Made by a program: the position numbers and the translations under genes
The notes under the pieces: generated by a model
Databases searched by the model: none
What the model was told of the DNA's origin: nothing
The model's input: the letters and a program-made list of their open reading frames with translations, nothing else
Source: Bradyrhizobium sp. CB1717
GTDB taxonomy: Bacteria > Pseudomonadota > Alphaproteobacteria > Rhizobiales > Xanthobacteraceae
DNA: 64,000 bases
Reading direction: 5' to 3'
Assembly: GCF_029714325.1 (NCBI RefSeq)
Contig: NZ_CP121666.1
Location: 3,410,001 to 3,474,000 of the forward strand
Shown: in pieces, positions 19,003 through 50,029 of the stretch
Layout: the number at the start of each line of letters is the position of its first letter
Position numbering within the stretch: the first letter of the stretch is position 1

Positions 19003-19611
19003 CTACTTGCCCTTCTTGCGGGGACGCGCCGACTTGGCGCGCAGCCGTTCGAGTTGCCCCTTGGGCATCGACAGGCAGATCTCGCCGACCCAGTCGAGCT
19101 TGACGCCGACGATCGGCTTGGCGTTGAAGCTGGTGAGATTGACGACGGAGGGGGATTTACCCCGCTCGATGGTCTTCAAATAGCGTTCGCCGGTCTTGAG
19201 CCGGACCACTGCCTCTTCGCCGTAGAAGCTCGACAGCGGATGGCGCTGATCCTTGTAGACCACGATCACGTCGCCGCTCTCGTATTTGGGCAGCATCGAA
19301 TCGCCCACGATCTCGAAGGCAACGGTCTCTTCCATGATCGGGAAGGGCAGCGCGATGTCACCGAGGCCTTCCGGGGGAACCTGCTCATAGTCCGGCTCGA
19401 TCACCGCGCCGGCGCCGACGCGGCCCATGATCGGCGCGAGATTGAGCTCGAGATATTCCATGATCGGAATGATTTCCGACGCCTTCACGAGGCGCTCGCC
19501 ACCGAGGATCTCCGACACCGCGCCGGGCCGCACGCCCATGGCAGCTGCCAGGCCGCCCTTGCTCTTGCCCGTCTTCTCCAGGCCCCGCTCGATCATTGCA
19601 ACGTCCAACAT
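19003..19611 (-). CDS. CI/LexA-like repressor with S24 autopeptidase domain
   Basis: A 202-residue protein. An N-terminal helix-turn-helix (about residues 5-60, AAAMGVRPGAVSEILGG) is joined to an S24 peptidase domain with catalytic Ser105 (VGDSMLPKYESGDVI) and a Lys near 146 (RYLKTIERG). An Ala-Gly pair at 67-68 (RVGAGA) is placed like the self-cleavage site. The tail is basic. Such proteins repress prophage or stress genes and cleave themselves when RecA is activated. Flanking palindromes suggest it regulates itself, the 91-aa gene and the divergent GcrA-like gene. It may be a domesticated phage repressor. Confidence 0.85.
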   Translation of the reverse strand: MLDVAMIERGLEKTGKSKGGLAAAMGVRPGAVSEILGGERLVKASEIIPIMEYLELNLAPIMGRVGAGAVIEPDYEQVPPEGLGDIALPFPIMEETVAFEIVGDSMLPKYESGDVIVVYKDQRHPLSSFYGEEAVVRLKTGERYLKTIERGKSPSVVNLTSFNAKPIVGVKLDWVGEICLSMPKGQLERLRAKSARPRKKGK

Positions 19612-19777: not shown

Positions 19778-20308
19778 ATGGAACCGGGCCATTGGCCGTC
19801 GGAACACTCCGACGCGCTTCGCGACTTTTTTCTCAAGGGAATGTCTTATGCGGAGATCGGAAGGCAGATTAACGCAAGATTCGGAACGGCTTACACACGC
19901 AACGCGGTGATCGGCCGCGCCAAGCGGCTCGGACTCGTCGTGCCGGAATGGATGACGAGCCCCTCGATCGTTCCGCCTTTGCCGGGCGAGGCTCTGGTTT
20001 CGCCACGCCGCTCGGCACTGCCGAACCTGAACCTGCCGCCGAAGTCCGCAATGAAGCCCGCCGCACGGGTCAAGTTGCGCTGCGTCGGCGTCCGGCCGCG
20101 CCTGATCGAGCTGGTCGAGCTCGAGGCGGCCGACTGCCGCTATCCCTACGGCGGCGACAAGGATGGGGAGGAGATCACCTTCTGCGGCCATCCGCGCCAG
20201 CCGGGCTCCAGCTATTGCGCACCGCATGCGCGCCTGACGCGCCGTTCCGGAGCTGCGTCAGCTCGCATCGCAACTCCGGCCGCGCTGAGGCTGGTCTCCC
20301 CCGCCTGA
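19778..20308 (+). CDS. GcrA-family regulator
   Basis: A 176-residue protein with the GcrA hallmarks. The N-terminal DNA-binding region has FFLKGMSYAEIGRQIN then YTRNAVIGRAKRLGL. A C-terminal element (CRYPYGGDKDG, FCGHP, SYCAPH) has the Cys/His layout expected of the sigma70-binding region. GcrA proteins bind methylated GANTC promoters with RNA polymerase and control cell-cycle genes in alphaproteobacteria. This copy is divergent in its linker and sits beside a phage-like repressor, so it may be a paralogue of mobile origin rather than the main GcrA. The ATG at 19778 removes an unconserved 19-residue extension. Confidence 0.8.
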   Translation: MEPGHWPSEHSDALRDFFLKGMSYAEIGRQINARFGTAYTRNAVIGRAKRLGLVVPEWMTSPSIVPPLPGEALVSPRRSALPNLNLPPKSAMKPAARVKLRCVGVRPRLIELVELEAADCRYPYGGDKDGEEITFCGHPRQPGSSYCAPHARLTRRSGAASARIATPAALRLVSPA

Positions 20309-20353: not shown

Positions 20354-20929
20354 GTGGCACGTCCCCGACGCAACAAGTCCTACAAATTGGCGCAGATCTA
20401 CGACCGGCGGTCCCGGGAGGTGCCGTTCAATGCCGAGGTGGCGGAGGTGGAGGTCGACAATCCGCTGGCGCTCGATTCTGGCGAGAAGATTCTGGCCCTT
20501 CGGTCGATCCGCAGCGATCCGCTCGGCCGGCTGCACGCACATCACCAGATCGATGAAGCACAATACCGCGGCGGGCGCGCCTTCCAGAACGATTGGGAGC
20601 GGGCGGAGCGGGGACCTCAGGCGGTGGATACGACCCGCGAATATGTCGATGGGACCGGCACGCGCGAGCCTGTCACGGAGAGCCAGCGCCAGGCGGTGCT
20701 GCGACTGAACCGGGTCGAGCGGGAACTCGGCGCCGACGGCAGCGCGCTGGTGCACGATGTGCTGGTGCTGGGTTTGACCATGGACCAAATCGGGCAGCGT
20801 CGTGCCGTTCGTACCCAGCGCTGGAATGATTATTTCGGGCGGCGCTTTCGCGAATGCCTGGACCGGCTGGCGCTGATCTACGGCTTTGCGACCGAGACGG
20901 GGACAGAGCGTGGGGACCGGCGCAGGTGA
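20354..20929 (+). CDS. DUF6456-like putative regulator
   Basis: A 191-residue protein starting at GTG, with AAGGAG eight bases upstream. A basic N-terminus (RPRRNKSYK) is followed by a helical region (residues about 70-175) with the layout I know from DUF6456: a DEAQYRGGRAFQNDWERAE helix, then a long helical pair and a helix-turn-helix-like TMDQIGQRRAVRTQRW segment. It is 45 bases downstream of the GcrA-like gene, likely the same transcript. Probably DNA-binding; phage-associated homologues are common as far as I know. Confidence 0.55.
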   Translation: MARPRRNKSYKLAQIYDRRSREVPFNAEVAEVEVDNPLALDSGEKILALRSIRSDPLGRLHAHHQIDEAQYRGGRAFQNDWERAERGPQAVDTTREYVDGTGTREPVTESQRQAVLRLNRVERELGADGSALVHDVLVLGLTMDQIGQRRAVRTQRWNDYFGRRFRECLDRLALIYGFATETGTERGDRRR

Positions 20930-37319: not shown

Positions 37320-37438
37320 GTAGGATCTCGGGTCTTTCCGGCGTTCCGTTTGCGAAAGGGGAAGCCCGGAAGAAATGCCGCGGGGGAACGATGGTTCCTT
37401 GACCGGGAAAAGCGGATTCCGATTAAGCGAATCCCGAT

Positions 37439-37468
37439 TTGATCCGTCGGGCAAAACACCTGTATAAA
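37439..37468 (+). promoter_or_regulatory. Promoter module related to the small-RNA repeats
   Basis: TTGATC (37439-37444), then an 18-base spacer beginning CGTCGGGCAAAACACC, then TATAAA (37463-37468). The spacer core is identical to that of the five promoter-terminator units at 42.7 and 44.9-45.4 kb, with the same spacing. No terminator of that family follows; a 28-codon ORF lies 54 bases downstream. Confidence 0.65.
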
Positions 37469-37521
37469 GGCACCATCGCAACCGCTCCGGCGCACGGCGA
37501 CGTTCGCTCCTGCTCAGCTTC

Positions 37522-39873: not shown

Positions 39874-40070
39874 ATCGGCGCCCTCAGGCCGGGCGAGCGA
39901 AGCCAGGCTTCGATCTGCAACGCCGTCTCGTCCTGCCGCGCCCTGCGCAGCAATATCTCGCGCTCGCGCCCGGGCGGCAGCGCGCGCGCCTTGTCGCGAA
40001 GGCGCGCCGCTTCCTCGGCAAGCCGCTGATCGAGAGTTCTGGTCTGCTTGAAACGCCGCCGCGTCAGCAT
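39870..40070 (-). CDS. Small basic helical protein, first of a coupled pair
   Basis: 66 residues, very Arg-rich (MLTRRRFKQTRTLDQRLAEE, then LPPGREREILLRRARQDE), probably one long helix. It overlaps the next gene by 4 bases. The ATG at 40070 was chosen over an upstream start that lacks a ribosome-binding site. Function unknown. Confidence 0.55.
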   Translation of the reverse strand: MLTRRRFKQTRTLDQRLAEEAARLRDKARALPPGREREILLRRARQDETALQIEAWLRSPGLRAPI

Positions 40071-40400
40071 GTTCTGCTCCCTTGCTGGAGTGGGACGGGA
40101 GCGCAATTGGCGTTCTCATCACCGATCGTTGCCACGGGCCTTGCGGTGATGGGTTAACGCTACGCTTGTGGCGGAGTGGGTGTCACAACATTTGATATGC
40201 TGCAGGGCGTTTATTTTCGCGCATATGTTGTGCGTTTTGAGCGACTTACTCATTTGGCGCGAAGGACGCTTTCAAGGTTCAGTTTTCAACAAAGCAATCT
40301 CCGGTAGTTTGCACAAAATCGCCGGCCGAGAATTCGTCCATAGGCGCCTGTGGCTGAGAGACCGATTGCGTTTCAGGTCGGCTGGCCGCGGCAACGGTGT
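40071..40400. other. AT-richer intergenic stretch
   Basis: 330 bases of lower GC content than the surroundings. A 78-codon open frame is present on the plus strand but lacks a ribosome-binding site and any recognisable feature. Nothing else seen. Confidence 0.4.
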
Positions 40401-40643
40401 TTAGCGCCGCACATAGCGGTAGGGAGGTTCAAAAACGTATGTCGAGCCGAAGCGGTATGGTAGTGGGTCGTAGCCAATCAAATACGCAGTTCTCACCCTG
40501 TAGAGCCTGTGTCGCACGACGGCAGTGTGCCGGTGCCACGTAGTGCTGCAGGCACACTTGGCACGAGAAGTGAACTCGGTGGCAGTCGCATTCTGAGGTA
40601 GAACAAAAATAGCAAATGCCCAAACCGCCAACGGCCGATACAT
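40401..40643 (-). CDS. Small exported hypothetical protein
   Basis: 80 residues with a signal peptide (LAVWAFAIFVLPQNATA) and a basic, Tyr-rich mature part with two Cys (KCACSTTW) ending FEPPYRYVRR. GGAGGAC lies six bases upstream of the ATG. Function unknown. Confidence 0.55.
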   Translation of the reverse strand: MYRPLAVWAFAIFVLPQNATATEFTSRAKCACSTTWHRHTAVVRHRLYRVRTAYLIGYDPLPYRFGSTYVFEPPYRYVRR

Positions 40644-40997
40644 GAGCGTCCTCCATACGCGCTTGCTGTCGTCCCTTAAAAGTTGGCGGGGGCTTCCAAA
40701 GTTCCCCAGCGTTGGTGCTGCGTGCGGTTCACCGGAACCCGTCCCAGCCGCGCAACGCATCACTGTACTAGCGGAGCGGCCCCGAGCCGATCCGGGGCGA
40801 CGTCTACGTTCGAAAATAAAAATGGCCCCGGCTCGCGGGCATGTGTGCCAAAATGGGAATAGCGGCCAGGCAACCTCCGGGCGCATTAACCCGTGCTGCT
40901 TGCAATAGATTGCTACCGGGCGGTACAATCTCCCTGTGCTGATATTTGACCATTCGATTTTCGAGAACTCATTTTTACAAACGCATTTGGAACGCCC
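40644..40997. other. Intergenic stretch
   Basis: 354 bases between divergent small genes. GCCCCG/CGGGGC (40779-40798) is a small inverted repeat. No gene is supported. Confidence 0.4.
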
Positions 40998-41204
40998 ATG
41001 TCGTGTAGACCAATCGTCTCAGCTTATGTACGCTTGAGGAACCAGCAGGCACTCGAAGATATGAGAGATCTTCGTCGCCAATTATTGAGGTCCGCGTCCG
41101 GTTCCGCAATCAAGCACGTTCACGATGATCTCCGATTGATTGAAGATGGGTTGGAACAGCTCCGCCGAAGTTGGCAAGCGGACAGGACCGGATCCTGTCG
41201 TTAG
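40998..41204 (+). CDS. Small hypothetical protein
   Basis: 68 residues, charged and helical (QALEDMRDLRRQLLRSASGS, DDLRLIEDGLEQLRRSW). Weak ribosome-binding site (GGAA). Base composition is lower in GC than the core. Function unknown. Confidence 0.45.
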   Translation: MSCRPIVSAYVRLRNQQALEDMRDLRRQLLRSASGSAIKHVHDDLRLIEDGLEQLRRSWQADRTGSCR

Positions 41205-41270
41205 CGCCCGCAGCTAGGGCACTGCAGATCCGAGGTACCCGGTTGCCCCGTCGCTACTTCCTCGCCTCAT

Positions 41271-41747
41271 TTACCGTGCTCTCGTGCGCAGACCGTCAAT
41301 GTTGTTGACCAAAGTCTGCGCGGTGCCGGCCTCTCTATTCGAGTTTCGCGGCAAGACGGCATAGTATGTGCGTCCGTTGTGCCTCGGATCGCTGCCATCG
41401 CTCGCCTTGAAATCAACAGCGCGCCATGTGTTCTTCGGGTTGAACCGCGCGAAGGCGTAGCGGTCGGCCGGCAGTGGTGTGGCGCCTTCGTAGACTACAA
41501 GGGATGCTGCTTCTTCGCCGATGGCGCTCTGCTTGAAACCGTAGTAGCGAACGGAATTCCCGTGGTCATCACTGCTGCCAGCGGGCAGAATCAGGGCGAC
41601 GTGTTCGCCGTCCGGTGCAGCGATATGGTGTGTTTCCAGAAGGAAGTAAGTCGGCGTCCAAACCGCGTACATTGCGGCGGCAATCAGCACGATCTCCCGT
41701 AGTCGGATGCCGCGGTCGAGCCAACCTGTAACCTTGCTCGAATGCAT
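41271..41747 (-). CDS. Single-pass membrane hypothetical protein
   Basis: 158 residues with one membrane segment (about 19-36, IVLIAAAMYAVWTPTYFLL) and a periplasmic-type domain rich in Asn, Asp and Tyr. No family recognised; GC content is lower than the core. Function unknown. Confidence 0.55.
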   Translation of the reverse strand: MHSSKVTGWLDRGIRLREIVLIAAAMYAVWTPTYFLLETHHIAAPDGEHVALILPAGSSDDHGNSVRYYGFKQSAIGEEAASLVVYEGATPLPADRYAFARFNPKNTWRAVDFKASDGSDPRHNGRTYYAVLPRNSNREAGTAQTLVNNIDGLRTRAR

Positions 41748-41885
41748 TTTACTTACTCAACGCCCCGCGAGAATTTTACTGCGGCACCCTTAACAAAACA
41801 GCCAATGGTTGTTCAAGTTACTCCGAGGATAATGTGGCACAAACTGCATAACCGCCCTGGCCTAACGTAGGTTAGGATCGGAGGC

Positions 41886-41975
41886 ATGGGCAGAGAACAA
41901 CTAGTGCTCGTGCTTGCTATTAGCGCTGGTGTGTTCACTGTTGGCGCTGCAGCGGCGCTAGTCTTTGGCCTTTGA
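41886..41975 (+). CDS. Possible 29-residue hydrophobic peptide
   Basis: MGREQ followed by a 23-residue membrane segment (VLVLAISAGVFTVGAAAALV). AGGA lies eight bases before the ATG. A candidate small membrane protein or type I toxin-like peptide. Confidence 0.4.
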   Translation: MGREQLVLVLAISAGVFTVGAAAALVFGL

Positions 41976-42034
41976 TCTGTCTCAATTAGCGCACGCGAGC
42001 CGCCCCGCATCTTTCCCTCCTATGGGAGGAGACA

Positions 42035-42115
42035 ATGCGGCCCTGGATGTTGCATGCGCTTGCTTGGGGTGCAGCCGCCGTGGGCTTGGCAGCCATCATC
42101 TCCATGAGCATGTAG
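42035..42115 (+). CDS. Possible 26-residue hydrophobic peptide with strong ribosome-binding site
   Basis: GGAGGAG lies four bases ahead of the ATG, the strongest ribosome-binding site in this stretch. The peptide is one membrane segment (MLHALAWGAAAVGLAAIISM). It is 59 bases downstream of the previous micro-ORF. Confidence 0.45.
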   Translation: MRPWMLHALAWGAAAVGLAAIISMSM

Positions 42116-42221
42116 AGGCCTGCACCGATCGCTTGCTCCAGCGCGCGAATGGTGTCGATCTACAGATCCAAGAGGTCGCTGCGGGCGGTACCGTTGATGT
42201 TGAGTTGGGGGCAGCTGCATA

Positions 42222-42443
42222 TCAAGGTTGCTTCTGAGCGTGCTCGGCCTCGACGGCGCGCAGCAGGGCGGCAAGGCTGGGATATTCCACGCCATTGCGC
42301 GCGTAGCGGTTGACAGGCTCGACATAGCGGGCCGATCCGTCGGGCTTGCCGCGCCAGCTGAATCGCAGCACGGCACTGTTGTGATGGCGCAGAACGTGGC
42401 CGGCGCCACTACCGAAATACAAGCTCATGGCGTGGGGCTTCAT
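42222..42443 (-). CDS. Small hypothetical protein
   Basis: 73 residues, His/Arg-rich (SLYFGSGAGHVLRHHNSAVL, then PVNRYARNGVEYPSLAALLR). GGAGG lies eight bases before the ATG. Function unknown. Confidence 0.5.
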   Translation of the reverse strand: MKPHAMSLYFGSGAGHVLRHHNSAVLRFSWRGKPDGSARYVEPVNRYARNGVEYPSLAALLRAVEAEHAQKQP

Positions 42444-42542
42444 GGCCGCGCCTCCAGCTTCGCCAGCTCCGACTCGTCCATTCCCGGATAAGCATCCGGA
42501 ACGGAGACGTTCCTATTGTAGGCCAGGAGAGATTCGGCGGGG

Positions 42543-42737
42543 GTGAACAGCTTCACACTTCTCGGCTTTCAGGCGGGATGGAATAGGCTGACAGTGCGCA
42601 GCGCAGAGTGCGAAATCATTCGCGACCTAGCGGCAGACCCCGAAAAGCGAGACTTGTTCGGTCGCCTTGCCGAGCACCACAGAGTCTTAGCGGAGGAGTT
42701 GCAGAAGGCTATTGCTACCAAATTGCGGGCGAACTAA
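42543..42737 (+). CDS. Small hypothetical protein
   Basis: 64 residues from GTG with GGAGAG about nine bases upstream. A central helical stretch (SAECEIIRDLAADPEKRDLF, then GRLAEHHRVLAEELQKAI) recalls other short rhizobial helical proteins. It ends 9 bases before the solitary copy of the promoter-terminator repeat. Confidence 0.5.
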   Translation: MNSFTLLGFQAGWNRLTVRSAECEIIRDLAADPEKRDLFGRLAEHHRVLAEELQKAIATKLRAN

Positions 42738-42745
42738 TTCGTCCG

Positions 42746-42833
42746 TTTGACACGTCGGGCAAAACACTGGCAGAATGACATCATCGACAAAGGTCGGTTC
42801 AGCCCGCGCGGAGCAATCCGCAGCGGGTTTTTT
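42746..42833 (+). ncRNA. Predicted small RNA, solitary copy of the repeat unit
   Basis: -35 TTGACA (42747-42752), 18-base spacer, -10 CAGAAT (42771-42776), predicted start near 42783. The terminator is GCCCGC+GCGGA (42802-42812), loop GCAA, TCCGC, bulge A, GCGGGT (to 42828), then T6. The transcript would be about 50 nt. It matches the four tandem copies at 44.9-45.4 kb in promoter and terminator but diverges between them and downstream. Feature span includes the promoter. Confidence 0.65.
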
Positions 42834-42871
42834 GTTTATTGAGATTTATTGCGGATTTTGGAGATTGCGGA

Positions 42872-43219
42872 ATGACTAGCAAGGTGAACAGACGAGTTGA
42901 GCTATATCAGCCGATTGCTCAGCGTGTGGCCAGCGCAGATATTAGAGCTCCCACGACGGTGGATATTGAGTTGTTGGCGAGAACCAAGACTGAAGCCGCG
43001 CTCAATGTGCTTGTTTCAATCATGCAGAGAGAGACTACGAATGCGTTTGCGCGGGTAGCCGCCGCAAACGCTATTCTCGACAGGGGGTGGGGTAGGCCGG
43101 TGCAGCCCTTGGCCACTGACAAGGCCCCGCTCGAGTTGTTGCATCGAATCGAACGCGCCATCGTGCATCCCGATCATCCAACATTGACCGCAGCCTCAAT
43201 CGAGGCCGCGCGAGACTGA
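42872..43219 (+). CDS. Hypothetical protein of phage type
   Basis: 115 residues. The central segment (ALNVLVSIMQRETTNAFARV, then AAANAILDRGWGRPVQ) is a pattern I know from small DNA-packaging-region proteins next to terminases in rhizobial prophages. GGAG lies about nine bases before the ATG. No terminase is present, so it is probably a phage remnant. Base composition is lower in GC than the core. Confidence 0.5.
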   Translation: MTSKVNRRVELYQPIAQRVASADIRAPTTVDIELLARTKTEAALNVLVSIMQRETTNAFARVAAANAILDRGWGRPVQPLATDKAPLELLHRIERAIVHPDHPTLTAASIEAARD

Positions 43220-43228
43220 GACGAGATC

Positions 43229-43252
43229 AAGCCCGCGGGATGCCGCGGGCTT
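43229..43252. terminator. Strong bidirectional terminator
   Basis: AAGCCCGCGG, loop GATG, CCGCGGGCTT: a perfect 10-bp stem followed by GTTTGTTT, between two convergent genes. Confidence 0.8.
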
Positions 43253-43285
43253 GTTTGTTTCGACGGCGAGTGAGAGGTGCGTCCG

Positions 43286-44803
43286 CTACGCCCCCGCCGG
43301 TCCAAACCAAGTCGTCAGCGCATCGGCAAGTCCGCTCCGGCTCTCGTCGCCGATCCACGCCACGTGCCCGTCGGGTCGCACCAGCACGGTTTTTGGCGCG
43401 AGGACTTGCCCGACAGCCGGAAGCTCCCACGCGCCGTCGTAACCGGCGCGCACGAGACTGACGCGATCCGCCCAGGGCGCGATGTCGGGATCCGGCGCCT
43501 CGCCGAAATTCAGCAGCAGGCCGCGCCCACCGTGCAGCAGCGTGAACAATCGCAGCGAGCGGCCTTCGATCGTCAGGTCGAGATCGGGCATGCGGCGTCC
43601 GAGCAGCGCGTGGCCTTCGCCGAGATCGTAGCTTATGTCGAGCCCGCTCATCATCGCGCCGAAGCGTTTTCGTGGTTCGTCCATGGCGAGCAGCTCGGTC
43701 ACGATTTCGCGCGCGGCGATGAGTCCGTCATCCGCGCGGCGGAGCAGGGCGATCTGCGCCCTGGTGTTGCGCAGCACGCGCGCAGCCACGGGATGACGCT
43801 CAGTGTGGTAAGTGTCGAGCAGGGCTTCGGGCGAGATGCCCTTGACCACCTGCGCCAGCTTCCAGCCGAGATTGACCGCGTCCTGCAGGCCGGTGTTGAG
43901 GCCTTGCCCGCCCACGGAGTGATGGATATGCGCGGCATCGCCGGCGAGCAGCACGCGTCCCCTGCGATAGGAGGCGGCCTGCCGCGCCGCATCGGTGAAG
44001 CGGGAGACCCAGGCGGGACTGTGCGCGCCGAAATCGGTGCCGTACACGGCGACGAGCGCGTCGCTGAGATCACGCAAGCCGGGCTCGCCGCTGCGCTCGC
44101 GCGTTGTTTCGGTCACGACGACCAGCACGCGTCCGCTCTCCGTCTTGCTGAGGCCGTGAAAGCCCAGCGCGTCGTGACGCAGACCCCACGCGGGCTCTTG
44201 CGCCATCTCGACCTCGGCCATGAGGTTGCTCAGCGTCGGATCGGAGCCGACGAAGTCGATGCCGGCCGTCTTGCGCACCAGGCTGCGGCCGCCGTCGCAA
44301 CCGACGAGATAGTTTGCGCGTAACGTGTCACCGCCGGACAGCGCGACGTCGACGCCGGTCTCGACTTGTGCGAAGCCCGTCACCTCGCGATTCCCATAGA
44401 TCGGCACCGCGAGCTCTCTGGCCCAGTCGGCCAGGATGCGCTCGATGTGGCTCTGCCGCAGTGCGAGCCCGTAAGCGTGGCGGGTGGGGAGGTCACCGAT
44501 GTCGAGCCTCGTCCAGGCGAAGCCGGCAAGCTGGACGATCTGTCCTTCGCGCAGGAAGCGCTCCGCGACGCCGCGCTGATCGAGGATCTCGATGCTGCGC
44601 GCGTGCAAGCCGCCGGCGCGCGTGCCGACGAGATCCTGGGCCGCGCGCCGCTCGACGATTGCGACGTCGACCTGTGCGAGCGCGAGTTCCGCCGCCAGCA
44701 TCAGCCCGGTCGGGCCGCCGCCGGCGATGACGACCGCATGGCCGGCGGCCGCCGCGCGCCTGTCGCTCGTTCGTGAACGGGATGTCGGAAGCAATACAGG
44801 CAT
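43286..44803 (-). CDS. FAD-dependent aromatic monooxygenase
   Basis: 505-residue flavoprotein of the p-hydroxybenzoate hydroxylase fold, in the RdmE/PgaE-like branch that also contains phenol-type hydroxylases. It has the FAD-binding GGGPTGLMLA (about residues 28-37), a DG-type motif (VGCDGGRSLVRK), GDAAHIHHSVGGQGLN, and a C-terminal thioredoxin-like domain to the end. It hydroxylates an aromatic ring with NAD(P)H and O2. ATG at 44803 follows GAGGGG. It is an isolated gene in the accessory zone, with no dioxygenase or transporter beside it. Confidence 0.88.
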   Translation of the reverse strand: MPVLLPTSRSRTSDRRAAAAGHAVVIAGGGPTGLMLAAELALAQVDVAIVERRAAQDLVGTRAGGLHARSIEILDQRGVAERFLREGQIVQLAGFAWTRLDIGDLPTRHAYGLALRQSHIERILADWARELAVPIYGNREVTGFAQVETGVDVALSGGDTLRANYLVGCDGGRSLVRKTAGIDFVGSDPTLSNLMAEVEMAQEPAWGLRHDALGFHGLSKTESGRVLVVVTETTRERSGEPGLRDLSDALVAVYGTDFGAHSPAWVSRFTDAARQAASYRRGRVLLAGDAAHIHHSVGGQGLNTGLQDAVNLGWKLAQVVKGISPEALLDTYHTERHPVAARVLRNTRAQIALLRRADDGLIAAREIVTELLAMDEPRKRFGAMMSGLDISYDLGEGHALLGRRMPDLDLTIEGRSLRLFTLLHGGRGLLLNFGEAPDPDIAPWADRVSLVRAGYDGAWELPAVGQVLAPKTVLVRPDGHVAWIGDESRSGLADALTTWFGPAGA

Positions 44804-44962
44804 GTCGTGACCCCTCGACTTGTTGTTCGGGTCGAGGCTTCTACGCGATGTCAGGGGGCTTGAAGCAAGCCCCTTGCGCACCACATATTGAGCTGGGAGG
44901 AGGGACTTCCTGCTTCGCGCGCCGATTTGACACGTCGGGCAAAACACCGGCAGAATGGCATC

Positions 44963-45014
44963 ATCGCGACGAGTTTGGTTCGGCCCGCGCGGAGCAATCT
45001 GTGGCGGGCTTTTT
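44963..45014 (+). ncRNA. Predicted small RNA, tandem copy 1
   Basis: -35 TTGACA 44927-44932, 18-base spacer, -10 CAGAAT 44951-44956. The terminator stem starts at 44983 (GCCCGC, GCGGA, GCAA loop, TCTGT, bulge G, GCGGGC) and is followed by T5 (45010-45014). The TCTGT arm pairs with GCGGA through two G-U wobbles, keeping the fold. Confidence 0.6.
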
Positions 45015-45092
45015 CATGTCCGCTTGGCGTGATGACAATCGCGCTCAACACTGGGTTTGACACGTCGGGCAAAACACTGGCAGAATGGCATC

Positions 45093-45144
45093 ATCGAAAC
45101 GAGTATGGTTCGGCCCGCGCGGAGCAATCCGCGGCGGGCTTTTT
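45093..45144 (+). ncRNA. Predicted small RNA, tandem copy 2
   Basis: -35 TTGACA 45057-45062, -10 CAGAAT 45081-45086. The terminator stem GCCCGC+GCGGA (45113-45123), GCAA loop, TCCGC, bulge G, GCGGGC (to 45139) has 11 bp of perfect pairing and is followed by T5. A GNRA loop on a GC stem is very stable. Confidence 0.65.
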
Positions 45145-45222
45145 CATGTCCGGTTGGCGTGACGACAATCGCGCGCAACACTGGGTTTGACACGTCGGGC
45201 AAAACACTGGCAGAATGGCATC

Positions 45223-45274
45223 ATCGAAACGAGTACGGTTCGGCCCGCGCGGAGCAATCTGTGGCGGGCTTTTT
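45223..45274 (+). ncRNA. Predicted small RNA, tandem copy 3
   Basis: -35 TTGACA 45187-45192, -10 CAGAAT 45211-45216. The terminator stem begins at 45243 with the TCTGT variant of copy 1, followed by T5 (45270-45274). Confidence 0.6.
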
Positions 45275-45352
45275 CTTGTCCGCTTGGCGTGACGACAATC
45301 GCGCGCAACACGGGGTTTGACACGTCGGGCAAAACACCGGCAGAATGACATC

Positions 45353-45405
45353 ATCGAGACGAGTTTGGTTCACCCGCGCGGGGGAAATCCGCTGCGGGTT
45401 TTTTT
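45353..45405 (+). ncRNA. Predicted small RNA, tandem copy 4 (variant)
   Basis: -35 TTGACA 45317-45322, -10 CAGAAT 45341-45346. The outer stem changed from GCCCGC/GCGGGC to ACCCGC/GCGGGT (45372-45399), a compensated base-pair change, and is followed by T7. The loop is one base longer. Sequence after the terminator is unrelated to the other units. Confidence 0.6.
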
Positions 45406-45617
45406 CGTCTCGATTCCAGAATCGGACGGCGGCCCACGCATCACGGCCACGCACTCGCTTGATACGCGTTCTTGGAGCGCCGATCGGCGTGCCGCCGTCC
45501 GAACCATTGCTGGCCGTGCACGCGCGAACGTGCCGGCCCGCGGCGCCGGGCCCGTTGCCCGCGCCGCTGCGGTCTCCGGGAGCGGAGATCGGGCACTGGT
45601 ATGAGCCGGACAAACTG

Positions 45618-45791
45618 ATGGGGTACTGCGTCGCTCTCTATTTTGCGAAACTCCTCGTCTTCGACAAGGTTTTCGGCCTCGGATCCACTGATCCTTTGGC
45701 GGGGTTCGCGTCGATTACGGCCAATCTCATCGTCTCCTTCTATTTCGCCAAGCGCGGTTTCGAAAATGTTGCGAGGATCATCAAGCGGTGA
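45618..45791 (+). CDS. Small holin-like membrane protein
   Basis: 57 residues with two hydrophobic stretches (VALYFAKLLVFDKVFGLG and FASITANLIVSFYFAK) and a basic end (RIIKR). The size and layout, and overlap with the next phage-type gene by 4 bases, suggest a phage lysis-region membrane protein. No endolysin is present. The frame is open back into the repeat array, but there is no start signal there. Confidence 0.5.
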   Translation: MGYCVALYFAKLLVFDKVFGLGSTDPLAGFASITANLIVSFYFAKRGFENVARIIKR

Positions 45792-46087
45792 AGATGCCAG
45801 ATGATGAAATCAGAGCGATAGTCGCAGAGACGTTGATCGAGCAGCACAGGCTGCAGCAGGACAACATCGATGCGATCGTATTGAAGGCGGTGGCGTCGGT
45901 GCTGGCTTCTTTCGGAATCGAGGATGACGATCGGAAAGAGCTGAGAGCTGACTTTCAGCATCTGCGAAGGTGGCGAAAGAGCGTGGAGCAGGCACAGAGC
46001 TATACCTTCAAGGCCGTAATTACAGTGCTTGCCACCGGCCTGATGGGAGCCGTCTGGCTCGGGGTCAAGGTCGTGCTGAGCAAGTGA
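45788..46087 (+). CDS. Phage-type membrane protein (DUF6127-like)
   Basis: 99 residues from GTG (or 97 from the ATG at 45794). The N-terminal helical region has LRADFQHLRRWRKSVEQAQS; one C-terminal membrane segment follows (AVITVLATGLMGAVWLGVKV). This arrangement is common in rhizobial and rhodobacterial prophages as far as I know. It overlaps the preceding small membrane gene. Confidence 0.55.
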   Translation: MKMPDDEIRAIVAETLIEQHRLQQDNIDAIVLKAVASVLASFGIEDDDRKELRADFQHLRRWRKSVEQAQSYTFKAVITVLATGLMGAVWLGVKVVLSK

Positions 46088-46139
46088 ACCCTCAGGTGGT
46101 CGCGCCAGCATCCGCCATTCCCGGCGAATAGGTCGTCTC

Positions 46140-46568
46140 ATGTACAGAATTCGCATTGTCGATACATCCGACGACGACATCGTCGATACATTGTCCGATC
46201 TGCATCGTTTGACGTTCTTCGATGCCGCTGTAATGCCTCAGTTTGAGTTGGGGGTGTGGTGGTTGGCCTATCACGGCGATGATGCCGTCGCCTTCGCCGG
46301 TGTGCTTCCGTCGACGCACGTCAGAAATGGCGGCTACTTCTCCAGGGTCGGGGTGCTACAGCGACACTGGGGACGAGGCCTCCAGCGCAGGATGATGCGT
46401 GTGGTCGAGGCGAGGGGACGGCGTATCGGATGGGGCAGCATCGTCTCTGATACGACCGACAATCCCGTTTCTGCGAACAACTTCATCCAGGCGGGCTATC
46501 GACTGTTTGAACCAGAGGTGCCCTGGGCCTGGTCTCATTCGCTTTATTGGCGAAAGTTGCTTCGCTGA
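46140..46568 (+). CDS. GNAT-family acetyltransferase
   Basis: 142-residue GNAT fold. The acetyl-CoA segment is FSRVGVLQRHWGRGLQRRMM (R/Q-x-x-G-x-G/A-like) and later strands are SDTTDNPVSANNFIQAGYRLF. Substrate unknown; it could be a small molecule or protein. It sits with phage-type genes, where such GNATs often occur. A strong hairpin terminator follows. Confidence 0.8.
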   Translation: MYRIRIVDTSDDDIVDTLSDLHRLTFFDAAVMPQFELGVWWLAYHGDDAVAFAGVLPSTHVRNGGYFSRVGVLQRHWGRGLQRRMMRVVEARGRRIGWGSIVSDTTDNPVSANNFIQAGYRLFEPEVPWAWSHSLYWRKLLR

Positions 46569-46654
46569 GCAGGGTTTCCCGCGGTGCGGAACGTAGCCGT
46601 CATGCGTGGCAGCTCAAAGTTGCGGCACAGCGTCGTACGCGCGCAATGTCGAAC

Positions 46655-46682
46655 GGCCCGGCAGCTTGACGGCTGCCGGGCC
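46655..46682. terminator. Strong hairpin terminator
   Basis: GGCCCGGCAGC (46655-46665), loop TTGACG, GCTGCCGGGCC (46672-46682): a perfect 11-bp stem followed by CTCTTTG. It closes the GNAT transcription unit. Confidence 0.75.
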
Positions 46683-46798
46683 CTCTTTGCGTTTTCAGGT
46701 ATGTGGTTGAAGCACTTGCGTAGTTGGTTGCGCCGCGCTTTAAGTTTGCTCTTGCAGGAAATTCGGCGACCATAAGCCGATGTAAGGGAGCGTCATCG

Positions 46799-48061
46799 AT
46801 GTCCACCAAGCCTCAATTGCCGGAACGTTCGTCGCGGGTCACGGAAGGGCCTGCGGCGCTCGATGGTCTGCTGGTCGTCGATTTTACACGCGTGGTTGCT
46901 GGCCCGGCCTGCACGCAGACGCTGGCTGATTTCGGTGCACGCGTCATCAAGATCGAGAACCCGGATGGCGGTGACGATACACGCGCATATGAGCATGCCG
47001 AGATCGGCGGCGAGACTGCTGCTTATCTTAGCCTCAACCGCAACAAGCGTGGCATCGCACTGGATCTCGCTGTCCCTGAGGCTCGCGAGATCGCCCTGGA
47101 TCTGATTCGCAAGGCTGACGTGGTCGTCGAGAATTTTTCGAGCGGGGTCATGAAGAAATTCGGACTCGACTACGACGCGGTCGCGCCACTCAACCCTCGG
47201 CTGGTCTATTGCTCGATATCTGCCTATGGGCGCTCCGGGCCGTTTGCCTGGCGCCCCGGCTTCGATCCCATCACCCAGGCGGAAAGCGGCTTCATGTCGC
47301 TCAACGGCTTTGCCGACGGTCCTCCGGTGCGCACCGGCCCACCCATCGTGGACATTGCGACGGGAATGACGGCTTGTAACGCCATTCTTCTCGCTCTGCT
47401 GGCGCGGGATCGGCTGGGCCGCGGCCAGCACGTCGAGGTTGCCTTGTTCGACATAGCAATGGCGATGACGGGTTTCTACGGTATGGCCTATCTGATCAAT
47501 GGTCAAAATCCCGGCCGGTTCGGAAATTCGCCGAGCGGATCTCCCACCGTCGGCGTCTATGAGGCTTCCGATGGGCCACTCTACATGGCCTGCGCCAACG
47601 ACCGGCTCTATCGCCGGCTGGTCGTCGAGGTGCTGAATCGGCCTGATCTCATCACCGATCCGCAATTCGCAACGCGTAAAGCGCGTTCCGAGAACAAGGA
47701 GCTGTTGCGGGCAACCATCGCGGAAGTCTTCGCAAGCGATACCCTCGAGAACTGGATGGCGAAGATGAAGTTGGCAAAGATCCCGGTCGGCTATCTCCGC
47801 ACCGTCGAAGAGGGCTTTAACGCACCCGAGGCCCGCGACCGCCATCGCCTGAGCCGGATTCCGCATCCTACCGCCGACTGGGTCCCGAACATCGAGACGC
47901 CGATTACCATGAGTTTAACCGCCGCGATCGATCCCGTGGCCGCACCTTTGTTGGGCGAGCATACCCTGGACGTCTTGCGTGACACGCTTGGTTACGACCA
48001 GCGCCGGATTGCGGAATTCGTCCAGAGGGGAGTCTTCGGATCAGGTAAACCCTCGGTTTGA
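46799..48061 (+). CDS. CaiB/BaiF (class III) CoA transferase
   Basis: 420-residue type III CoA transferase: LDGLLVVDFTRVVAGPACTQ near the N-terminus, the FDPITQAESGF region, and a catalytic Asp candidate in PPIVDIATGMTA. It moves CoA between acyl donors and a carboxylic acid, activating the acid for beta-oxidation-type breakdown. The ATG at 46799 follows AGGGAG. First gene of the catabolic island, followed by the monooxygenase 165 bases later. Confidence 0.88.
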   Translation: MSTKPQLPERSSRVTEGPAALDGLLVVDFTRVVAGPACTQTLADFGARVIKIENPDGGDDTRAYEHAEIGGETAAYLSLNRNKRGIALDLAVPEAREIALDLIRKADVVVENFSSGVMKKFGLDYDAVAPLNPRLVYCSISAYGRSGPFAWRPGFDPITQAESGFMSLNGFADGPPVRTGPPIVDIATGMTACNAILLALLARDRLGRGQHVEVALFDIAMAMTGFYGMAYLINGQNPGRFGNSPSGSPTVGVYEASDGPLYMACANDRLYRRLVVEVLNRPDLITDPQFATRKARSENKELLRATIAEVFASDTLENWMAKMKLAKIPVGYLRTVEEGFNAPEARDRHRLSRIPHPTADWVPNIETPITMSLTAAIDPVAAPLLGEHTLDVLRDTLGYDQRRIAEFVQRGVFGSGKPSV

Positions 48062-48226
48062 GCCCCGAGCGGTTGACCTCGTGGGCTGGCATCGCGCGGC
48101 TTGCAGAGCGTTGCTTCACGATGCCGGGCCGCGATATCGCCCCCTTTCCGACGGCCGGGTTCGGAGCGATCGGCTTGATTTGGCGATATTCCCGCCGCAT
48201 AAATGTGGGAAAGTGAGGGATGCGGA

Positions 48227-49456
48227 ATGGCGCCTGGTCAAGAGCCGAGCGTGGGCCAGCCTGAGGGGCCGGGATCCGGCGAGCGCGCTTACGCCGCAAT
48301 GATCGCGAACGCTCGGGCGCTCCTGCCACGACTGCGAGAGAGAGCTGCCCGAACCGAAGAGCTCCGGTACCTTCCGCCCGAGACCGAACGGGATCTGCAC
48401 GAAGCCGGTCTGTTCCGGATGCTCCAGCCCAGGCGCATTGGCGGTGCCGAGCTCGACTATGTCGCCCTGATTGACTGCGCCGATCTGCTTGGACAGGCGG
48501 ATGCGTCGGTGGCCTGGAATCTCGCCAATCTGGCGAGCCATCACTGGATGCTCGGCATGTTCGAGCAGAGGGCGCAAGATCTGGTCTGGGGCCGTGATCC
48601 GGATACGCTGATTGCCTCCTCATTCATCTTTCCAGCCGGCCGCGCCACGAGGGTCAAGGGCGGATACCGGTTGCACGGAAGTTGGCCCTTCTCTTCCGGC
48701 GTCGCGTCCTGCGAATGGAATATGCTCGCAAGCGTGGTCTCCTCTGAAGATGAGGCAGATGGCATCGAGTACCGGATATTTCTGCTGCCGAAGGGCGACT
48801 ATAGGGTCCTCGACACTTGGAATGTCGCCGGGCTGCGCGGGACCGGTTCTTGCGACGTGGAAGTTCGGGACGCCTTCGTGGCCGACGATATGACGGTGGC
48901 CGTTGGGGAGCTTACCGGCGGCCGGCCGCCGGGGGCCAGGGTCAATCCCAATCCGTTATATACGTTACCTGTGTTCTCGCTATTTCCTTACGTCTTGTCC
49001 GGTGTTGCGCTGGGAAACGCCCAGGCGTGCCTGAACGATTATATCGAGGTCGTGCGTCACCGCATTTCCACCTACAACCGTGCCAAGCTGAGCGACTTTC
49101 AGAGCACGCAGATCAAGATTGCGGAGGCTTCCGCCAAGATCGACGCTGCGCGCCTGATCATGCGTTCGGCTTGCATCGATGCCATGGAGAACGCAAGGCG
49201 TGGCCATATTTCAGATATGTCAGCCAAGACCCGATATCGGCGCGACGGGGCCTTCTCGGTGAACTTGTGTACAGATGCGGTCTCGATGCTGTTTGCGGCG
49301 AGCGGAGCGCGCGGCTTGTTCACGACGGGGGTGTTGCAGCGGCAATTCCGCGATGCACACGCGATCAACTCACATCTCGCCTTCAATTTTGATGCAGCTG
49401 GAACCAACTATGGACGCGTGGCGCTAGGCCTGCCGTCCGAGAATCTCACGCTGTGA
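48227..49456 (+). CDS. Flavin-dependent monooxygenase, acyl-CoA dehydrogenase fold
   Basis: 409-residue member of the HsaA/HpaB-C2/DszC group: acyl-CoA dehydrogenase fold but using reduced flavin from a partner. Seen are ADASVAWNLANLASHHWMLG, the flavin-region WPFSSGVASCEWNML and a C-terminal helical bundle ending GRVALGLP. The flavin reductase gene follows after 9 bases, confirming a two-component monooxygenase. It would hydroxylate an aromatic or heteroaromatic ring. ATG at 48227 is preferred because GAGG lies upstream; an ATG eight codons earlier is possible. Confidence 0.85.
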   Translation: MAPGQEPSVGQPEGPGSGERAYAAMIANARALLPRLRERAARTEELRYLPPETERDLHEAGLFRMLQPRRIGGAELDYVALIDCADLLGQADASVAWNLANLASHHWMLGMFEQRAQDLVWGRDPDTLIASSFIFPAGRATRVKGGYRLHGSWPFSSGVASCEWNMLASVVSSEDEADGIEYRIFLLPKGDYRVLDTWNVAGLRGTGSCDVEVRDAFVADDMTVAVGELTGGRPPGARVNPNPLYTLPVFSLFPYVLSGVALGNAQACLNDYIEVVRHRISTYNRAKLSDFQSTQIKIAEASAKIDAARLIMRSACIDAMENARRGHISDMSAKTRYRRDGAFSVNLCTDAVSMLFAASGARGLFTTGVLQRQFRDAHAINSHLAFNFDAAGTNYGRVALGLPSENLTL

Positions 49457-49465
49457 GGCCGGCCG

Positions 49466-50029
49466 ATGAATGATCTGCCGAAGCAGCCGGCCGTTCCCGA
49501 TCCAGCCAACGAACTTGCGAGCGACAGCTCGCCGATCGATCCCCGCGATTTTCGAAATGCGCTGGGCACATACGGAACGGGCGTAACGATCATCACCGCC
49601 ACGGCAGCAGATGGAAAGCCGTATGGCATCACCTGCAATTCGTTTGCATCGGTCTCCTTGAATCCGCCTCTGGTCCTCTGGAGCCTCGGGGTCTATTCCT
49701 CAAGCCTGCCTGTGTTCCAGAACGCCAGCCACTTCGTCGTCCATGTCCTCGGTACGTCGCAACAGGCGCTTGCGAACAAGTTTGCAAAATCGTCCGAAGA
49801 CAAGTTCGCTGGTGTCGATTGGGCGCCGGGCCTCGGCAATGCTCCGGTGCTCGCCGAGAGCGTCGCCAGTTTTCAATGTCGTTCCGTCAACCGCTATTAT
49901 GGCGGCGATCACGTGATCTTTCTCGGAGCAGTCGAGGCCTATATCTATAATGCCAGGGAACCTCTGCTGTTTGCGCAGGGGACATATGGCCGGTTCCTGG
50001 CCGATGATGAGCGCAAGAAATCGCCGTAA
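49466..50029 (+). CDS. NAD(P)H:flavin reductase of the two-component monooxygenase
   Basis: 187-residue HpaC-type reductase: RDFRNALGTYGTGVTIITA, GITCNSFASVSLNPPLVLW and the VEAYIYNAREPLLFAQGTYG end. It supplies reduced FMN/FAD to the monooxygenase encoded 9 bases upstream. It converges with the HIBADH-family gene. Confidence 0.9.
   Translation: MNDLPKQPAVPDPANELASDSSPIDPRDFRNALGTYGTGVTIITATAADGKPYGITCNSFASVSLNPPLVLWSLGVYSSSLPVFQNASHFVVHVLGTSQQALANKFAKSSEDKFAGVDWAPGLGNAPVLAESVASFQCRSVNRYYGGDHVIFLGAVEAYIYNAREPLLFAQGTYGRFLADDERKKSP

Follow-up and report, generated by a model that had tools for sequence, protein, structure and literature searches.

Structure of the array

The DNA analyzed here is a 64,000-nt stretch (the window) of the 9.23 Mb genome of Bradyrhizobium sp. 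CB1717, and the element in question is a head-to-tail array of four 130-bp units at positions 44926-45408 on the plus strand, in which each unit, or cassette, consists of a promoter, a short leader and a terminator (Table 1). The array had been reported in a preliminary description of this DNA, and it was confirmed by the sequence, by the hairpin folds and by Tandem Repeats Finder, which called a repeat of period 130 at 44926-45404 with 3.7 copies, 91% matches and no indels. The order within each unit is TTGACA, an 18-bp spacer (CGTCGGGCAAAACACYGG), CAGAAT, a stretch of about 50 nt, and a GC hairpin followed by a U-run, and the sigma70-type -35 and -10 elements stand at standard spacing (TTGACA-N18-CAGAAT) in all four units as well as in an alignment of 72 cassettes. 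Some details of the preliminary description had to be adjusted: the 18 bases of the spacer, called invariant, are kept except for one position that varies between C and T; units 1-3 are complete at 130 bp and the fourth copy stops after its terminator; the stem, given as a clean 11 bp, consists of 10 pairs interrupted by a one-base bulge, to which units 1-3 add an apical A-U pair; and the GNRA loop is found in these three units and not in unit 4. Both of the pairing-preserving changes, TCCGC/TCTGT and GC to AU at the base of the stem, were found, and the hairpin energies of the cassettes range from -17.4 to -21.5 kcal/mol.

An intrinsic-type terminator shortly 3' of the promoter was found in six cassettes of the CB1717 genome, which include the solo (fifth) cassette of the window and a sixth at position 6683957, outside the window. 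The 20-base promoter core had seven sites in the window at no more than 3 mismatches, five of them exact (the array and 42747), in comparison to none in 100 shuffles, and the 32-base promoter pattern had 41 sites in the genome at no more than 3 mismatches in comparison to none for the reversed control; the array is therefore not a product of chance. The cassettes were rightly taken as non-coding, and a conserved open reading frame (ORF) in the unit was rejected, since the leaders of different copies differ by one-base indels and the sole shared start overlaps the -10. A FixK/FNR-type operator in the -35 region was also rejected because its spacing did not fit (by eye). Unit 4 is termed the anchor unit, as the one with orthologues in other species.

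Table 1. Positions of features in the window and, in the last row, in loci L342 and L210
Feature	Position	Strand	Details
Array unit 1	44926-45055	+	-35 44927-44932; spacer 44933-44950; -10 CAGAAT 44951-44956
Array unit 1 terminator	hairpin 44983-45009, U-run 45010-45014	+	Sequence, Tandem Repeats Finder, hairpin fold
Array unit 2	45056-45185	+	-35 45057-45062; hairpin 45113-45139; U-run 45140-45144
Array unit 3	45186-45315	+	-35 45187-45192; hairpin 45243-45269; U-run 45270-45274
Array unit 4	45316-45408	+	-35 45317-45322; hairpin 45372-45399; U-run to 45405
Solo (fifth) cassette	42746-42837	+	Adjoins terS-like gene on its upstream side
terS-like phage gene	42872-43219	+	phrog_15261, function unassigned in that family
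Conserved non-coding region, several hairpins	45421-45593	+	Directly after the array
Small membrane-protein ORF (MGYCVALYFAKLL..)	45618-45791	+	Now joined behind the non-coding region
99-aa phage-type protein	45788-46087	+	phrog_6420, 1.1e-19
DUF6456-like protein, proposed antiterminator	20354-20929	+	47% identical to ppBeUSDA76-2 protein
GcrA-family protein	19778-20308	+	Pfam GcrA, 7.5e-51
CI/LexA-like repressor, helix-turn-helix and peptidase S24	19003-19611	-	Divergent from gcrA/DUF6456; RogA-like layout
Dispersed promoter-like site without terminator	37438-37469	+	
Portal gene irregularities	L342:5711-9399 and L210:19031-21243		

Distribution and conservation

The unit matched 95 of 146 Bradyrhizobium genomes at E<=1e-12, often in several copies within a few kilobases, and arrays of two to four cassettes were also found in other species. 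Spread beyond one genome was also seen with a covariance model of the 72 cassettes, which had hits in 12 of the 198 family genomes searched, namely all 11 sampled Bradyrhizobium members and, with one weak hit, a genome of another genus; this search used stricter filters, which lose weak matches.

In the 72 aligned cassettes, which were chosen by their first 21 bases and are thus biased in favor of conservation of that part, the spacer was the most conserved block (1.90 bits per position) and the leader the least (0.90), with intermediate values for the -35 (1.71), the -10 (1.70), the stretch behind the -10 (1.76) and the two sides of the stem (1.71 and 1.49). The hairpin is kept, as 96.9% of 714 cells were paired and 21 were double-changed, exceeding all 500 shuffles, while neither the count of double-changed pairs (2) nor that of pair types in the stem was unusual in comparison to the shuffles. 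Upstream flanks diverge and leaders diverge between copies, and the promoter and hairpin stay. This pattern suggests that termination, and not the RNA sequence, is kept between copies, and, because the spacer is the most and the leader the least conserved block, that the spacer is read by some factor.

A concerted change points in the same direction. In three genomes (G103, G110 and G138), 7 of 7, 3 of 3 and 10 of 10 sites among the matches listed, cassettes included, read GGGCAAATCA where most other genomes read GGGCAAAACA. Since the spacer motif changed together at all listed sites of one lineage, a shared trans-acting factor would be the simplest reason. An inverted copy of the spacer element after the start matched perfectly or with one deviating base at 6 of the 13 viral sites tested; this dyad was rejected as a general feature, being weak in 98 cassettes (5.42 in comparison to 4.97 of 9).

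Occurrence in phage and viral sequences

The temperate phage ppBeUSDA76-2 of B. elkanii (OP596614) carries a DUF6456-like gene shortly before terS and terL, and a promoter-like stretch followed by a hairpin with a U-run lies at the end of this gene. When both strands of the phage were scanned with a promoter matrix built from 148 chromosomal sites and no viral ones, this place ranked first, ungapped as well as with a one-base gap; with a variant-only matrix (8 sites) its rank was third without a gap and first when a one-base gap was allowed.

Relatives of the window DUF6456 protein are encoded by 73 IMG/VR loci, in which a zone from -50 to +250 around the end of the DUF6456 gene was scored on the same strand. 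The locus-wide best matrix site fell within the zone in 27 of the 73 loci and one of the top three in 35, in comparison to a mean of 2.35 and a maximum of 6 for 40 column-permuted matrices and 1 for the opposite strand; one of the 27 first-rank matches (L303) lies inside the terS coding sequence and is probably false. Hairpin terminators were found in the zone in 32 of 73 loci in comparison to 28 of 365 random windows, and terL, found in 29 of the loci, was downstream on the same strand in all 29 at a distance of 0.5-3.1 kb. These counts link the promoter-terminator module to DUF6456 genes.

The reverse search, with a pattern taken from the phage sites, gave 34 sites in 32 viral contigs, of which 29 had a terminator and 15 had terL behind; a DUF6456 gene was close upstream of 11 of the 30 sites with at least 450 bp of upstream sequence and of 2 of the remaining 4. 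The host form of the promoter occurred at seven sites in five viral contigs, with a terminator at 7 of 7 sites and terL downstream in 5 of 5 contigs; the viral contigs have overlapping origins and do not count as independent. One locus (L342) has the order cassette, terS, terL, portal in two pieces, and SU10 major capsid. Another (L358, IMGVR_UViG_2546825533_000001, 40.5 kb), listed as viral in IMG/VR, has terL, three host-form cassettes and, as in the window, a FAD-monooxygenase-like gene; on this ground it probably represents the same stretch of chromosome, which was called as a provirus. A blastn search with the cassette gave no match in the phage and plasmid collections.

Phage surroundings and candidate regulator

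Cassette neighborhoods were compared in named relatives (20 loci, six of them annotated), where the cassettes adjoin SU10-like prophage remnants with terS-like, terL and portal genes. The terminase large subunit of the relatives matches Terminase_3 (2.5e-22) and is 73% identical to TerL of ppBeUSDA76-2, and a short portal piece is of the SU10 type (1.1e-54). The phage content of the window, also when judged against the full structural gene set of a gene transfer agent (GTA), is limited to the terS-like gene, phrog_6420 and fragments; one longer relative of the terS-like protein weakly matches a terminase small subunit family. The hairpin-rich non-coding region leads in many relatives to a 23-aa hydrophobic ORF and the terS-like gene, and is shortened in CB1717. 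Double changes were seen in 5 of its 53 pairs, the folding z score was -3.5 for 45400-45605 and -1.7 in one relative, and the region had no blastn match in phages, its exact 34-mer being absent from the viral contigs. The hydrophobic ORF (MTAYLISLALAGLVAIVLWETFS-like), found in L095 and other relatives, has a Shine-Dalgarno-like site and overlaps the terS-like gene. A tRNA/tmRNA search of 40000-50000 found none. As to portal genes, that of L342 is in two pieces with about 1.5 kb between them, and the annotated portal-like coding sequence of ppBeUSDA76-2 stops early and is followed by 1.7 kb without an annotated coding sequence.

The DUF6456-like gene of the window lies on the same strand as the cassettes, 22-24 kb upstream of them, and was matched in 141 of the 146 sampled Bradyrhizobium genomes, with purifying selection in those compared. 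Among the matches listed, many relatives of the ppBeUSDA76-2 DUF6456 protein carry PF20057. The adjacent GcrA-family protein scores 49.7 bits in comparison to the core-GcrA equivalog cut-off of 280 bits. Across 30 loci the divergent repressor is 97-100% identical and the adjacent GcrA protein drops to 78%, which suggests an unusually tight constraint on the repressor.

Dispersed promoter sites

Motif A (AACAACCCCATGCACAGTAG) lies within 400 bp upstream of 22 of 24 terminator-less sites, for the most part where ordinary genes have their 3' ends, and most of the approximately 35 dispersed promoters belong to A-B elements, which show a strong strand preference along the chromosome. Motif A itself has 65 exact copies in the genome, often at gene 3' ends (e.g., L017:1045-2044); 19 of 19 exact copies at 0.21-2.30 Mb are on the minus strand and 18 of 23 beyond 5.5 Mb are on the plus strand, so that with dnaA at position 25 the motif may point towards the origin, while the GC skew of the sampled loci was too noisy for placing the origin. 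At almost every site among the matches listed for G103, G110 and G138, motif A has the form ..ATGCAAAGTAG; motif A and the promoter motif changed in one and the same lineage, as if both readers had changed. Of 30 orthologous intergenic sites corresponding to that of L017 (L151-L180), 18 contain the A-B element and 12 lack it, and no motif A was found in the viral contigs.

Interpretation and alternatives

We consider it likely, with a probability of roughly 0.7, that the cassettes are phage late promoters of the Q/GafZ type, domesticated and amplified, whose terminator is crossed only by polymerase loaded with an antiterminator; the loading is proposed by analogy with GafZ. Each unit would comprise a sigma70 promoter, a recognition element in the spacer and an intrinsic terminator about 50 nt further on, at which polymerase would stop soon after starting when the regulator is absent, leaving a short RNA as a by-product, in the manner of lambda PR'-tR' or the Caulobacter GTA promoter. 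The divergent CI/RogA-like repressor would hold down the DUF6456 protein (20354-20929), which, once made, would load onto polymerase at the spacer, and the loaded polymerase would then pass the terminator or terminators and go on to transcribe the non-coding leader and the phage genes that follow. The window would accordingly contain a decayed, domesticated SU10-like prophage in which the module was copied, here to four in tandem, and the tandem units may act as serial start sites or gates. A broader proposal, in which the phage switch has turned into a host regulon with one DUF6456 antiterminator, and the CI/RogA-like repressor above it, acting on the cassettes and on the approximately 35 dispersed promoters, is tentative and in our view rather doubtful. 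The late-promoter interpretation would provide a predicted DNA target for the poorly known DUF6456 proteins, which 73 viral loci encode and which published work connects with GTAs, and it suggests that a switch for phage late genes has been retained by root-nodule bacteria.

A number of observations weigh against this interpretation. The window DUF6456-like protein falls below the Pfam cut-off for PF20057 (21.7 in comparison to 26.3 bits, with 25.9 for the ppBeUSDA76-2 protein), and the best alignment of its predicted fold, to antiterminator Q21, is weak (root-mean-square deviation 6.8, 6% identity); the available text of PMC11150451 describes predicted GafZ as structurally unlike Q or AlpA. 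At least 10 of the matched DUF6456 genes have an in-frame stop in the matched stretch, that of G103 is in two pieces, one genome (G128) with a cassette hit gave no hit to DUF6456, and 47 genomes have the gene without a cassette at 1e-12. In the viral sequences, 46 of 73 DUF6456 loci have their best site outside the zone, 19 of 30 promoter sites have no DUF6456 gene in the 600 bp upstream, no DUF6456 gene was found in the examined stretches of the five host-form contigs, and the absolute score of the ppBeUSDA76-2 site is low (-7.6 in comparison to a mean of 58). In the chromosome, 35 of 41 sites examined have no cassette-type terminator and do not precede recognizable phage genes, few of the phage genes that followed the array survive in the CB1717 genome, and the hairpin region of about 170 bp persists where the phage genes behind it are lost. 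Finally, the idea that cassettes serve the next gene was not supported by a strand test, which showed no enrichment of co-orientation: the next gene was on the same strand for 48 of 78 cassettes, on the opposite strand for 26 and missing for 4, in comparison to a background of 300:178; this count omits 24 cassettes which directly precede another cassette.

The preliminary description had read the array as a multicopy small-RNA locus, with the approximately 50-nt RNAs as functional product, either regulator or sponge, and we now regard this as unlikely. An autonomous promoter with a strong terminator, covariation in the stem and a placement that ignores the strand of the next gene would all be expected of small RNAs, and the leader of the anchor copy is conserved among orthologues (1.34 bits in comparison to 0.45 for the upstream flank). 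That leader, however, is no better kept than the DNA past the terminator (1.47), conservation between copies is lowest in the leader, and the conserved spacer is untranscribed. In addition, no Rfam family was found (none at the gathering threshold for the window and none up to E 5 for two relatives), and the same promoter-terminator modules precede terminase genes in viral sequences, behind the DUF6456 gene. Still less probable is a decoy array, in which the units would titrate a spacer-binding protein and the terminators would just insulate idle promoters; tandem amplification, 41 sites in the genome and transcription halted at once agree with it, but a decoy needs no good promoter, and promoters are a better fit to the lone cassettes that precede terminase genes in viral contigs and in other genomes. 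A dispersed mobile repeat, promoter-like at its end by accident and arrayed by tandem insertion or slippage, is the least probable, as flanks and between-copy leaders diverge around a kept promoter and hairpin and viral loci show the link to the DUF6456 gene, even though the promoter part is common to the A-B elements (18 of 30 sites occupied), and the unit does not resemble, by eye, the Br-REP1/2 or GTAG/CGTC palindromes in the available text of PMC5082802 and PMC3733652. Known repetitive extragenic palindromic (REP) sequences and miniature inverted-repeat transposable elements were likewise rejected, as the consensus sequences in the accessible parts of these two papers differ from the unit, and as a GTAG/CGTC REP the unit has CGTC but, by eye, no 8-9 bp palindrome after it (definition in the same part of PMC3733652).

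Comparison with known systems

The literature covered on Bradyrhizobium small RNAs, on GTA/GafA and on late promoters held no description of such a module, and the motif strings had no occurrence in the literature searched. In lambda and phage 21, the Q-dependent late promoter PR' has the terminator tR' close behind it and the late genes behind that. The cassettes resemble this arrangement in the sigma70 promoter, the element between -35 and -10, the near terminator and the terminase genes behind, and differ in that the regulator here is DUF6456-like and that many tandem copies lie in a host chromosome. The likeness to ppBeUSDA76-2 (available text of PMC10127595) includes TerL and the DUF6456 protein (73% and 47% identity) and a promoter-like stretch with terminator in the same place, whereas the phage has one copy, a poor -10 and a distance from the -35 to the core that is one base shorter. 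The small RNAs BjsR1-10 of B. japonicum USDA 110 are also short intergenic transcripts, some in 2-4 copies, but the accessible part of PMC5082802 describes no tandem promoter-terminator array among them; this comparison was made by description and not by sequence.

The other close comparison is with the GafA/GafYZ systems. According to the available text of PMC11150451, the Caulobacter antiterminator GafZ has its element between -10 and -35, a location likened to those of lambda Q and AlpA, the repressor RogA stands above GafZ, and three 150-bp direct repeats form the terminator which is crossed; RogA is LexA-like in the part of PMC9632790 available, and the name DUF6456 is attached to GafA in those of PMC9638019 and PMC9765227. 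As far as these sources go, the systems share with the array the DUF6456 name, a LexA/CI-like repressor, an element between -10 and -35, antitermination and tandem repeats as terminator, in comparison to which the promoter sequence differs and the repeats described here also carry promoters.
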